NCBI RefSeq assembly: GCF_030128825.1
Contig: NZ_CP119127.1
Location: 850,001-914,000 of the forward strand
Direction: 5' to 3'
Source: Sphingobium sp. WTD-1
GTDB lineage: Bacteria; Pseudomonadota; Alphaproteobacteria; Sphingomonadales; Sphingomonadaceae
Length of the DNA stretch: 64,000 nt
In this document: piece after piece, positions 1 to 39,515 of the stretch
Position numbering within the stretch: the first letter of the stretch is position 1
How the letters are laid out: each line of letters starts with the position of its first letter
The notes under the pieces: model-generated
Seen by the model: only the letters and a program-made list of their open reading frames with translations
What the model was told of the DNA's origin: nothing
The model's database searches: none
Made by a program: the position numbers and the translations under genes

Positions 1-507
1 GCCCTGGTCCTTGCTGCCCTGTCCCGCGACCATATAGGTGGCGATCGTCCAGGGACTGCCTGCAAAGCCCAGGAAGGTCACAGACGGGTCCAGCGCGGCC
101 TTCACCTGCCGCACCGTTTCATACACAGCCTCATATCGGCTGAAATCGGGTGTCAGCGCCGACAGGTCGGTCTCCGCCAGGATCGGGGCGAGACGCGGGC
201 CTTCGCCGGCCTCGAACCAGAGATCCTGTCCCATCGCATAGGGGACGATCAATATGTCGGAAAAGAGGATGGCGCCGTCGAAGCCGAAGCGGCGCAGCGG
301 CTGGAGCGTGACCTCTGCCGCGGCGGCGCTGTCATAGACCAGTTCGAGGAAGCCGCCCTTGTCGGCGCGAAGGGCGCGATATTCCGGCAGATAGCGGCCT
401 GCCTGGCGCATGAGCCACATCGGCGGGACGGGCGGCACCGCGCCGCGCAATACGGAAAGGAGCGGCTTGGCGCTGACTGCGCCGGCGTGAGCGTCGGGAC
501 CCGTCAT
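1..507 (-). CDS. hemE: Uroporphyrinogen decarboxylase, N-terminal part (runs off left edge)
   Basis: The minus strand reads from an ATG at 507 to the left edge without a stop, giving about 169 residues of a roughly 340-residue enzyme. Residues around 29-41 read [14 protein letters not shown], the signature of uroporphyrinogen decarboxylase, and further in come [18 protein letters not shown] and GEGPRLAPI. The enzyme removes four carboxyl groups from uroporphyrinogen III to give coproporphyrinogen III in cytosolic heme synthesis. It is transcribed away from the putative origin, and its promoter must lie in the 508-560 AT-rich stretch. In Caulobacter hemE flanks the chromosomal origin, which supports the oriC call. 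The C-terminal half is outside the window. Confidence 0.95.
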
Positions 508-510
508 GAA

Positions 511-545
511 CTCTCTACTTTATAAAGATATTTAAAAAGGAATGT
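511..545. promoter_or_regulatory. AT-rich stretch: candidate DNA unwinding element / hemE promoter
   Basis: Between the hemE start and the DnaA boxes lies an A/T run, including TTTATAAAGATATTTAAAAA at 520-539, unlike the GC-rich surroundings. It sits at the edge of the box cluster, as unwinding elements usually do. It must also carry hemE promoter elements. A single TTAA at 532 followed seven bases later by TGTT is only a weak CtrA-like match. Confidence 0.45.
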
Positions 546-664
546 TGAGGTTGTTGGGCTGTTGGTTCGGGGGTTTATGCGCTGTCCCCGCTTTTGCCAA
601 CAGCTTGACTCCTGGAGTCACGCGATTCCGCGGCGAGTCATCTGAATCATCCCCATTACCCACA

Positions 665-714
665 GGCTGTGGATAAGATTCCGGCCCTGTTGAGAGGCTG
701 TGGATAAGATTCCG
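665..714. repeat. 19-bp direct repeat carrying DnaA box plus GANTC
   Basis: The 19-mer GGCTGTGGATAAGATTCCG occurs at 665-683 and exactly again at 696-714, a 31-bp period (about three helical turns). Each copy contains a perfect inverted DnaA box followed one base later by a GATTC (GANTC) methylation site. Confidence 0.9.
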
Positions 715-792
715 CTTTCTGGGGACGAAATGGGGCTGCAAAGTTATCCACAACTCTATCCCTTGCTTTATCCACAGGGGACTCACAGAGAT

Positions 793-1626
793 ATGCCTGT
801 GTCACGTATCCATCTTCACCTGCTTTCGGACTCCACCGGCGAGACGCTGGAGAATATCGCCAAGGCGGCGATCGGCCTGTTCGAGAATGTCGAGGCGATC
901 CGCCATTTCTGGCCGATGGTCCGATCCGAAGTGCATCTCGACCGGATCATGGAGGAGATATCCGCCCATCCCGGCCTGGTGCTGTTCACGCTTACCAACC
1001 ATGTGCTGCGACGGCGGCTGGAAACGCGCTGCCGCGCGCTCGGCCTGCCCCATGTCGCCGCGCTGGACAGCGTGGCCGATGCCCTGTCCAACATATTGGG
1101 GCAGGAAACCCGGACCCGGCCGGGCCGCAAGCATATCCTGGACGAAGCCTATTTCGCGCGGATCGAGGCGATCCAGTTCACCATCGCCCATGATGATGGC
1201 GTGGGACATGAGAATTGGGAGGAGGCCGATATCGTCCTGGCGGGGGTGTCGCGCGCGTCGAAGACGCCGACCTCCATCTATCTTGCCAATCGCGGCTACA
1301 AGACCGCCAATATCCCGCTGGTGCCGGAATCGCCGCCGCCGCGCAGCCTTTATGGCCTGAAGCATCCGATGGTGGTGGGGCTGACCATCAGTCCCGAGCG
1401 GTTGATCCAGATACGGCGCAACCGTTTGCTGTCGCTCAACCAGGCGCCAGAGACCGCCTATGTGGATAGCGACAAGGTGCAGGAGGAACTGGCCTTTGCC
1501 CGGCGCATGTTCGCCGACAATGGCTGGCCGGTGATCGACATGACCCGCCGGTCGATCGAGGAAGCGGCCGCCGCCATCATCAACCTGTTCAACGACCGCG
1601 AACTGGCGGAAGGAAATGAAGCATGA
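793..1626 (+). CDS. ppsR: Pyruvate, phosphate dikinase regulatory protein (DUF299 kinase/pyrophosphorylase)
   Basis: The product is a 277-residue bifunctional regulator that phosphorylates PPDK or PEP synthase with ADP and reverses this by phosphorolysis. LLSDSTGET lies near the N-terminus and the P-loop-like GVSRASKTPTSIYLA begins near residue 150, both hallmarks of the family. The frame is open further upstream to 700, but that extension would run through the DnaA boxes; the ATG at 793 gives MPVSRIHLHLLSDSTGET, the normal family start. It is first in a tight operon with maf (ATGA overlap) and aroE. Its place next to the origin matches the first gene of the Caulobacter chromosome. Confidence 0.93.
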   Translation: MPVSRIHLHLLSDSTGETLENIAKAAIGLFENVEAIRHFWPMVRSEVHLDRIMEEISAHPGLVLFTLTNHVLRRRLETRCRALGLPHVAALDSVADALSNILGQETRTRPGRKHILDEAYFARIEAIQFTIAHDDGVGHENWEEADIVLAGVSRASKTPTSIYLANRGYKTANIPLVPESPPPRSLYGLKHPMVVGLTISPERLIQIRRNRLLSLNQAPETAYVDSDKVQEELAFARRMFADNGWPVIDMTRRSIEEAAAAIINLFNDRELAEGNEA

Positions 1627-31707: not shown

Positions 31708-31752
31708 TGTGGTTCGGACGTCTTGAGAGAACATTCTTTATAATTTTCAATC

Positions 31753-37172: not shown

Positions 37173-37810
37173 CCGAAGACGAAGCGCGGGCCTGGCTCGA
37201 TGCGCATTTTGATGTTCCACGTGAAACATGGGATCGGCTGGAGCGCTATGTGTCGCTCTTGCTGTCCGCGATGGACGAGCAGAATCTGATCGCCGAATCG
37301 ACCCGGCCCCATGTCTGGGCGCGGCATATCGTCGACTCCGCCCAGTTGCTGTTGCATGCCAAGGATGCGGGGGAGGGGCCTTGGATGGACCTGGGTTCCG
37401 GTGCCGGCCTGCCCGGCATTGTCGTCGCCAGCATGTCCGACCGGCCGCTGATCATGGTTGAATCGCGCCGCAAGCGGATCGACTTCCTCAATGAGGTGAT
37501 CGCGGAGCTGGGGCTGGGCACCGCCTCCGTCTTTGGCGGCCGGGTCGAGGTCACGCCGCCGACCAAGTCGGCCGTCATCAGCGCCCGCGCCTATGCGCCG
37601 CTGCCCAAATTGCTCCAGTCGGCCCAGCATCTGTCCGATGAAAAGACGATTTGGGTGCTGCCCAAGGGACGAAATGCGCAGAATGAACTGGAGGCCGCGC
37701 GTCCGGCATGGCAAGGTGCGTTTCATGTGGAACGCAGCGTGACCGACGCCGACAGCGCCATCATCGTCGCGCGATCCGTCAAACCTGTCAAAAAGAGGGG
37801 TCGAGGATGA
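37169..37810 (+). CDS. rsmG: 16S rRNA (guanine527-N7)-methyltransferase
   Basis: 213 residues. [17 protein letters not shown] is the SAM motif [11 protein letters not shown] follows, and [13 protein letters not shown] is the RsmG signature. It methylates G527 of 16S rRNA. ATG 37169 lies in the mnmG stop. Unusually, one good parS site (37213) and one degenerate one (37719) are inside this short coding sequence. The stop overlaps parA. Confidence 0.95.
37213..37228. other. parS: parS centromere site inside rsmG
   Basis: TGTTCCACGTGAAACA, an almost perfect palindrome matching the ParB core GTTNCACGTGNAAC. It encodes DVPRET residues of RsmG, so it is kept within coding constraint. Confidence 0.9.
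37719..37734. other. Degenerate parS-like site near the end of rsmG
   Basis: CGTTTCATGTGGAACG resembles parS with CATGTG instead of CACGTG at the centre, which is usually important for ParB binding. About 75 bp before parA. Confidence 0.45.
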
Positions 37811-38589: not shown

Positions 38590-39515
38590 GCGACGAGATT
38601 GGGGAAAAGCAGAAGCCGGTAAAGCGGCCGCACGGTCTGGGCCGTGGCCTTTCGGCACTGCTGGGCGATGTGAACCGGGAAGAGCCGGTGGCAGCGAGCG
38701 CGAGCAGCGCCGCGCCGTCGAGCAAGGCGGTCCAGAATATCGAGGTCGCGCTGATCCAGCCGCACCCCGAACAGCCGCGCCGGCATTTCGACCAGGACGC
38801 GCTGCAGGAACTGGCCGACAGCATCGCCAAGCGCGGCGTGATCCAGCCGATCATCGTCCGCCCCCATGGCGGCGGCTTCCAGATCGTCGCGGGCGAGCGG
38901 CGCTGGCGCGCGGCGCAGAAGGCGCAGCTGCACCGCATTCCGGCGATCGTGCGCGACTTCGACGAGCAGGAAACGCTGGAAATCGCGCTGGTCGAGAATA
39001 TCCAGCGCGAGGATCTCAACCCGATCGAAGAGGCCGAGGCCTATCGCAAGCTGATCGGCGAATTTCATCATAGCCAGGAAGCACTGGGCCGCATCGTCGG
39101 CAAGTCGCGCAGCCATATCGCCAATCTGATGCGCCTGCTCGACCTGCCCGATCCGGTGCAGCAGGCGGTGTCGCACGGGCGGATCAGCATGGGCCATGCC
39201 CGCGCGCTGATCGGCGTGCCGGGCTGCGAATCGATGGCGCTGATGGTCGAGCAGAAGGGGCTTTCGGTCCGTGAGACCGAGCAGCTGGTGCGCAAGACCA
39301 AGAAGGGCGAGGATGCCGAGCCCAAGTCGCGCGGCGCAACTCGCGGTGGCAAGGATGCCGATATCGCCGCACTGGAGCAGCATCTGGCCGATATTCTCGG
39401 CCTGAAGGTCGAAATCGCCGATAGCGGCGAGGGGCCAGGCACATTGTCGCTGCGCTATTCGACGCTCGACCAGCTGGATATGCTGTGCCAGCGCCTGTCG
39501 GGCGAGCGGATCTAA
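38586..39515 (+). CDS. parB: Chromosome partitioning protein ParB
   Basis: 309 residues from a TTG start overlapping the parA stop (TTGA). LGRGLSALLGD near the N-terminus contacts ParA. The CTPase/ParB domain has QPRRHFDQDALQELADSI, then VAGERRWRAAQ near residue 104 and ENIQREDLNPIEEAEAY. The HTH segment KSRSHIANLMRLLDLP reads parS. The C-terminal dimer domain is intact. Weak TTG initiation plus coupling probably sets the ParA:ParB ratio. Confidence 0.96.
   Translation: MSDEIGEKQKPVKRPHGLGRGLSALLGDVNREEPVAASASSAAPSSKAVQNIEVALIQPHPEQPRRHFDQDALQELADSIAKRGVIQPIIVRPHGGGFQIVAGERRWRAAQKAQLHRIPAIVRDFDEQETLEIALVENIQREDLNPIEEAEAYRKLIGEFHHSQEALGRIVGKSRSHIANLMRLLDLPDPVQQAVSHGRISMGHARALIGVPGCESMALMVEQKGLSVRETEQLVRKTKKGEDAEPKSRGATRGGKDADIAALEQHLADILGLKVEIADSGEGPGTLSLRYSTLDQLDMLCQRLSGERI

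Follow-up and report, generated by a model that had tools for sequence, protein, structure and literature searches.

In oriC of Escherichia coli the array of DnaA boxes adjoins an AT-rich element, and this organism uses Dam/GATC and SeqA; the locus described here carries sites of the GANTC/CcrM type where E. coli uses Dam/GATC. The origins of Caulobacter and Rickettsia are reported to be bounded by hemE and a COG1806 gene (PMC1914354), and our locus resembles Cori of Caulobacter crescentus in its flanking genes, its AT-rich block, its DnaA-box array and its GANTC sites (PMC1914354, PMC8959179, PMC3973325). According to the published accounts Cori has five CtrA sites, two moderate-affinity G-boxes and weak W-boxes (PMC8959179, PMC4468827), whereas our locus contains no CtrA site with at most one mismatch and has four perfect consensus boxes. 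An oriC beside hemE has already been predicted with Ori-Finder/DoriC for most Sphingomonadaceae, and in Sphingopyxis the same locus has conserved boxes and a putative DNA unwinding element (DUE); the Sphingopyxis box set differs from the one found here, and the accessible text of that report mentions no GANTC sites (PMC4741004).

The genome of Sphingobium sp. WTD-1 comprises 5,674,265 bp in 6 contigs, of which C1 (5,078,332 bp) was assumed to be the circular chromosome; the window, by which we mean the whole 64-kb stretch of DNA analysed, is C1:850001-914000. The ORF at 1..507 on the minus strand is presumably hemE, in agreement with the gene order CopD-hemE-ppsR annotated in a relative, and the gene on the other side belongs to the family NF003742, which we take to be COG1806/DUF299. 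Since hemE starts at 507 (-) and ppsR at 793 (+), the gap between them is exactly 508-792, the same hemE-COG1806 (ppsR) intergenic gap that marks an origin of the hemE/COG1806 type. We give a probability of roughly 0.9 to the reading of 508-792 as the oriC of the main chromosome, and the gap is very probably an ordinary origin of that type, placed as in its relatives. The features referred to below are as follows.

1..507, minus strand: 5' part of hemE (uroporphyrinogen decarboxylase), ATG at 507, full ORF 353 aa
504..555, no strand: AT-rich block, probable DUE, recognised by AT content, with unwinding as its presumed role
508..792, no strand: oriC candidate, the whole hemE-ppsR intergenic gap, from box cluster and flanking genes
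558..604, no strand: conserved block with inverted arms GCTGTTGG / CCAACAGC, from the alignment of relatives and an inverted-repeat search
607, 615, 624, 635, 644, 677, 708 and 780 (span 607..784), no strand: eight GANTC sites, probable CcrM targets
647..655, plus strand: B0, weak box TCATCCCCA, 2 mismatches (motif match)
656..664, plus strand: B1, near-match box TTACCCACA (motif match)
664..683, plus strand: 20-bp exact direct repeat, copy 1, holding B2 plus GATTC (repeat search)
668..676, minus strand: B2, exact TTATCCACA box (motif match)
695..714, plus strand: 20-bp exact direct repeat, copy 2, holding B3 plus GATTC (repeat search)
699..707, minus strand: B3, exact TTATCCACA box (motif match)
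744..752, plus strand: B4, exact TTATCCACA box (motif match)
768..776, plus strand: B5, exact TTATCCACA box, beside ppsR (motif match)
793..1626, plus strand: ppsR-type gene (pyruvate, phosphate dikinase/PEP synthase regulator), NF003742 of NCBIfam with E 2.1e-96, above cut-off
37213..37228, no strand: parS-like site, 1 mismatch (C1:887213)
38727..39005, plus strand: ParB_N domain (C1:888727-889005), E 1.7e-36, the top ParB_N match in the genome
55374..55389, no strand: parS-like site, 1 mismatch (C1:905374)

A preliminary description of this DNA had proposed a probable chromosomal origin in the gap, at the position of the Caulobacter origin. The first proposal is supported by the flanking genes, the boxes, the AT-rich block, ParB/parS and a skew flip in the relative G011, and the second by the flanks hemE and COG1806, which are the same in Caulobacter (PMC1914354). 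The boxes were also largely as it had described them. It had counted four perfect boxes and one near-match in 120 bp, and B1 to B5 all lie within 121 bp (656-776); the exact boxes at 668 and 699 face left and those at 744 and 768 face right, as it had said, on strands -, -, + and +. Its 'two opposed pairs' hold for the strands of these exact boxes, but it had overlooked the weak site at 647 and the rightward direction of the near-match at 656, and the full array reads B0+ B1+ B2- B3- B4+ B5+, with B1 (656+) and B2 (668-) forming a head-to-head pair. When the whole 5.67 Mb genome was scanned, four exact boxes in 150 bp were found only at the gap. The window contains 15 boxes with at most one mismatch compared with a shuffle mean of 3.68, and 15 was reached in 0 of 100 shuffles. 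The DnaA-box cluster expected of a hemE/COG1806-type origin is present.

Conservation of the array was followed in relatives. A PpsR scan of named genomes gave at least 569 confirmed loci, of which the best 80 were kept for comparison, and the best 31 of the at least 569 (L014-L044), mostly from Sphingobium with a few MAGs and other genera, formed the closest-relative set. In these best 31 loci the boxes lie at fixed spacings upstream of ppsR. They were counted at a fixed distance from B5, and because small indels shift some of the aligned rows the counts for the other boxes are minimum values. B5, which is also the anchor of the count, was exact in 31 of these best 31 loci, B3 in at least 20, B1 in at least 17 and B4 in at least 3, while at the fixed distance of B2 an exact box was found in 0/31 and TCATCCACA was the commonest sequence (16/31); at B0 the same best 31 of at least 569 loci had mostly CTATCCCCG (8/31) or TTATCCCCG (4/31). 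The per-box counts mean that two opposed perfect pairs are not the conserved design, and the symmetric four-box architecture of the preliminary description needs to be corrected in this respect. An exact B2 is present in the more distant locus L062 and is thus not unique to this genome. Since the relatives mostly have TCATCCACA at B2 and the two 20-bp repeats are identical, a copy of the B3 repeat unit may have replaced the original B2. The other 49 of the best 80 loci had fewer and weaker boxes, and one of the loci, L071, had no box with at most one mismatch in 703 bp. Exact boxes just upstream of ppsR were observed in five of the six genomes with complete box lists (this genome, G007, G009, G010 and G011, the exception being G012). 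The box set of the gap is partly lineage-specific.

The AT-rich stretch that had been noted next to the boxes is real. The top AT 36-mers of the 64-kb window lie at 504-555 (28/36), where they are unsurpassed and tied at least once, at 31733. In the last 320 bp before ppsR in the best 80 of at least 569 loci, the most AT-rich 30-mer had a median position of -286 relative to ppsR, and an AT-rich block occurs at the matching place in relatives, as is characteristic of the hemE/COG1806 type. By analogy with other origins this block is the probable natural unwinding place, on the hemE side and about 100 bp off the boxes. Adjacent to it, the conserved block at 558-604 combines 8-bp inverted arms with a nearly invariant TTGCCAACA; it is possibly a hemE promoter or a structural element. 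Neither terminators nor, in a search covering the sigma-70 type, promoters were matched in 480-820. The motifs used to scan the gap for CtrA, IHF and DnaA-trio sites were those we take to be standard. No CtrA site (TTAA-N7-TTAA) with at most one mismatch was present in 470-800, the nearest being overlapping 2-mismatch matches at 520-522 in the AT-rich block, and in this the gap differs from the CtrA-controlled Cori subtype of Caulobacter and Rickettsia. An IHF-like sequence with 1 mismatch was seen at 598(-), a candidate match to a degenerate consensus. DnaA-trio runs of at least 3 were absent from 470-800 and runs of at least 4 from all 31 of the best 31 of at least 569 loci, which sets the gap apart from DnaA-trio origins. 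The one structured-RNA (Rfam) match in the gap was below cut-off (16.8 vs 41.4 bits, E 0.67) and was deemed due to chance. The CtrA phosphorelay is reported as conserved in Sphingomonadales (PMC2877005), and according to published work origin CtrA sites are unseen beyond the relatives of Caulobacter and possibly Rickettsia (PMC4468827).

The eight GANTC sites in the gap compare with a shuffled mean of 1.34, with 0 of 5000 shuffles reaching 8, and their density tops that of every 200 bp in the window and in a 480-kb sample (sample best 4). Similar results were obtained in relatives, with a mean of 4.4 vs 1.27 shuffled in the best 31 of at least 569 loci and of 3.8 vs 1.18 in the other 49 of the best 80. 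The excess in both sets indicates an order-wide, though uneven, enrichment (range 1-9 per 285 bp). GANTC sites recur in the best 31 loci at three distances from ppsR, about -186 to -194, -158 to -165 and -85 to -92, and those of the third group adjoin B3. The genome encodes a CcrM-like methyltransferase at C1:2386122 (E 4.4e-185; its 614.5 bits are below the 830-bit cut-off of the Caulobacter CcrM model). Speculatively, methylation by CcrM of those GANTC sites that adjoin B2 and B3 may tune the access of DnaA. Caulobacter origins are known to carry GANTC sites, and there the loss of CcrM is reported to have left initiation control undisturbed (PMC3973325). The literature covered, in which subscription papers are scarcely represented, gave no GANTC counts for sphingomonad origins.

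The surroundings of the gap also have the character of an origin domain. The two parS-like sites at C1:887213 and 905374, matched to a consensus that we take to be that of parS, are the only ones in the genome with up to 2 mismatches, and ParB/parS lie 36-55 kb from the gap, near the origin as in the hemE/COG1806 type. The dnaA gene is at C1:4943848, about 0.98 Mb off the gap if C1 is circular. In the congener G008 the ppsR match begins 173 bases into the contig C1 of that genome, from which the contig start is probably inside the gap. Contig C2 of our genome carries a dif-like site (2 mismatches to the consensus presumed for dif) at C2:41196, near a ParB_N match at C2:36572, a chromid-like pairing.

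Read in the light of known oriC biology, the sites observed, the extent to which they are conserved, the AT-rich block and the setting in an origin domain suggest how DnaA binding, unwinding and helicase loading would proceed in the gap. DnaA would bind six positions, B0 to B5. B5 would serve as a fixed high-affinity anchor beside ppsR. B1 and B3 would be strong sites in the majority of relatives, where B0, B2 and B4 would be weak or variable. DnaA-ATP would then assemble along the array and open the AT-rich 504-555 beside hemE, where DnaB would be loaded and from where two forks would leave. An origin at this place was to be expected, and the value of the result lies mainly in a well-supported annotation that gives Sphingobium-like genomes a conserved framework of boxes; this genome is called Sphingobium-like from its nearest PpsR matches.

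What matters more than the annotation of the origin is the distribution of boxes around it. The exact TTATCCACA occurs 54 times genome-wide versus 16 times for the reversed pattern, and 45 of the 52 exact boxes on C1 are within 850 kb of the gap, that is, in a third of the chromosome. After neighbours were merged, 25 of 32 box clusters lay within the same distance, compared with 38% of permuted 9-mers of the same composition (585/1532, uniform sample); with sites treated as independent, the binomial P was 8e-13 for boxes and 5e-6 for clusters. The reversed-pattern control leans likewise, with 8 of its 14 sites on C1 within 850 kb, though the sites are few. The centre of this halo lies left of the gap, at 781 kb for boxes and 684 kb for clusters. 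Flanks were tallied for 51 of the 52 exact boxes on C1, the other two of the genome being on C3 and C4; a G followed the box in 40, an A stood at -2 in 28 and a C at -1 in 27, and 25 of the 51 exact boxes were coding by codon score. With the four origin boxes excluded no strand bias was detected in the halo (right arm 12+/10-, left arm 14+/12-).

Eight congeners had 7-20 exact boxes, with a mean of 13.8 vs 14.4 reversed patterns, and clearly exceeded their own control in G002 (17 vs 10) and G003 (19 vs 7). The non-congeners G009 (32 vs 16), G010 (19 vs 4) and G011 (77 vs 29) also had an excess, with G012 (2 vs 8) as the exception, and with three of four in excess a surplus of boxes is not unique within the order. 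In G007, the sole congener with a full list, 5 of 15 boxes lay within 850 kb of ppsR, which equals the uniform expectation; among the few genomes with known box positions the halo thus appears confined to this one. The 77 boxes on C1 of G011 are polarised by replichore (right arm 11+/31-, left arm 25+/10-) and are scarce near the presumed terminus and right beside the origin. Strand composition may account for part of this polarity.

Such a halo fits titration of DnaA. Tentatively, and with more doubt than confidence, we suggest that this lineage gained perfect boxes around the origin as a titration sink and that the origin's own boxes were sharpened to the consensus as well. The gained boxes would cover about a third of the chromosome, genic and intergenic, in an extended AC-TTATCCACA-G context, and a sink so close to the origin would double soon after initiation and damp re-initiation. 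In the titration model of Berger and ten Wolde, re-initiating too early during fast growth would be averted only if the sites were placed close to the origin, and these authors note that such a placement disagrees with the E. coli data to which they refer (PMC9640692). Olivi et al. later report origin-side enrichment of boxes in E. coli, with 42 of 56 strains having their global maximum close to oriC and a similar picture in Salmonella (PMC12371093). That enrichment includes looser motifs and has a lagging-strand preference (PMC12371093), whereas the halo described here consists of exact boxes only, favours neither strand and is lacking from the congener G007; the enrichment in E. coli is also the milder one. 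No description of a DnaA-box halo in sphingomonads was found in the literature covered, which holds few subscription papers. If the suggestion is true, congeners with few boxes and little or no excess are natural controls, and 45 of 52 boxes on the origin side, beside congeners with 7-20, would open the titration idea to a comparative test.

Two further groups of boxes were observed on C1. The place at 1096889-1096961, 246 kb right of the gap, has five boxes (at most one mismatch) in 200 bp and is the one other five-box place among roughly 0.79 Mb plus small loci examined. It is apparently intergenic and partly an inverted repeat, with exact boxes also at 1094593 and 1094615, and is a possible datA/DARS-like or regulatory site. 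At 730532-730842 four exact boxes occur in 311 bp within one long coding frame.

The GC skew of C1 was fitted with two arcs to 80 evenly spaced 6-kb samples. The maximum was found at 3.17 Mb and the minimum at 317 kb, with a bootstrap 5-95% range of 127-762 kb, and this coarse fit was equalled in 0 of 300 permutations. When 20 extra samples from 235-840 kb and the window were included, the break was at 660 kb, with a residual of 1043 vs 1308 when it was forced to 850.7 kb, a distinctly poorer fit. The skew maximum, at 3.14-3.17 Mb, lies close to a dif-like site at 3.134 Mb, again by the presumed consensus. A skew minimum at the gap, which the preliminary description had made a check of its reading, was not observed: the sampled turnover is at about 650-660 kb, some 190 kb left of the gap at 850.7 kb. 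Because the other evidence is concordant and GC skew has been described as insufficient for several alphaproteobacteria (PMC1914354), we do not count this offset as a refutation. In the order-level single-contig relative G011 the sign flips between 289 and 481 kb (20 samples), an interval that includes ppsR at 436.6-437.4 kb, and in the congener G001 coarse samples gave a best break at 3.18 Mb and a near-tie at 3.51 Mb, with ppsR at 3.459 Mb, which is compatible with the gap in no more than a coarse way.

The stretch C1:660000-850000, left of the gap, has right-arm-like skew, and so do the 20 kb left of hemE in the congeners G001 and G003. Within 20 kb of the gap no flip was seen in G001 (+0.026 left, +0.033 right), and in G003 the sign was equal on both sides. 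Over about 20 kb to the left of hemE the genes keep their order in G001 and G003, and in G007 this order is disrupted; the same order with the same skew in G001 and G003 means that a rearrangement private to this genome is not the whole cause. Other blocks had mixed fates. G001 and G003 have the 670-680 kb block to the left of ppsR with its orientation unchanged, and G007 and G008 have it split. In G001 the 756-760 kb piece occurs inverted at a similar distance, in G008 it is reversed and 218 kb right of ppsR, in G007 it is far off, and G003 has no strong match to it; the 620-630 kb stretch has short matches only in G001, G003, G007 and G008. The left side is accordingly made up of retained, relocated and genome-specific DNA. 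From these comparisons rearrangement would explain the displaced turnover partly at most; as its full cause it was rejected, given the collinear 670-680 kb block and the shared 20-kb skew.

The displaced turnover raises the alternative that the true origin lies near 650-660 kb of C1 and that the gap is no more than a conserved regulatory site to which DnaA binds, which we consider very unlikely. The turnover itself, the halo centre at 684-781 kb and the 670-680 kb block, whose position is not new since it keeps its side of ppsR and its orientation in G001 and G003, speak for it. However, G007 and G008 have that block divided, and the left side is partly rearranged in the genus, with 750-760 kb inverted or moved in G001, G007 and G008 and without a strong match in G003. 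ParB/parS and the conserved gene order are found at the gap. Between 640 and 670 kb there are two isolated exact boxes only (645216 and 651864), both in coding frames, and the loci L187, L227 and L104 contain no group of three or more boxes (at most one mismatch) per 200 bp; an origin at the skew turnover was rejected as being without a box group there.

It is extremely unlikely that the boxes are instead sites of DnaA-controlled hemE and ppsR promoters with no origin. The gap is a divergent promoter region and the conserved 558-604 block could be the hemE promoter, but a match of the sigma-70 type, the type searched for, is absent, and the box density, the AT-rich block and the order-wide synteny exceed what promoters need. 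Promoter and origin roles can be combined in one gap, and hemE transcription is reported to matter for replication at the Caulobacter origin (PMC8959179). Scarcely credible is an origin of a plasmid or chromid carried into the chromosome: the gap has a match (73.6% over 55%) in the plasmid record NZ_CP155751.1 (425 kb), but this was the only one of 72,556 plasmid records to match at E 1e-5. Its match is flanked by rho, hemE, a ppsR-type gene, aroE, coaE and dnaQ, which makes it chromosomal core DNA labelled as plasmid, and the plasmid or chromid origin was rejected since the sole matching record carries these chromosomal core genes. The reading of the gap as a chromosomal oriC was retained. 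The locus in that record (L281, NZ_CP155751.1:134345-146499), which is labelled as a Sphingomonas parapaucimobilis plasmid, includes the origin gap, and the record is either a mislabelled part of a chromosome or one piece of a split chromosome.
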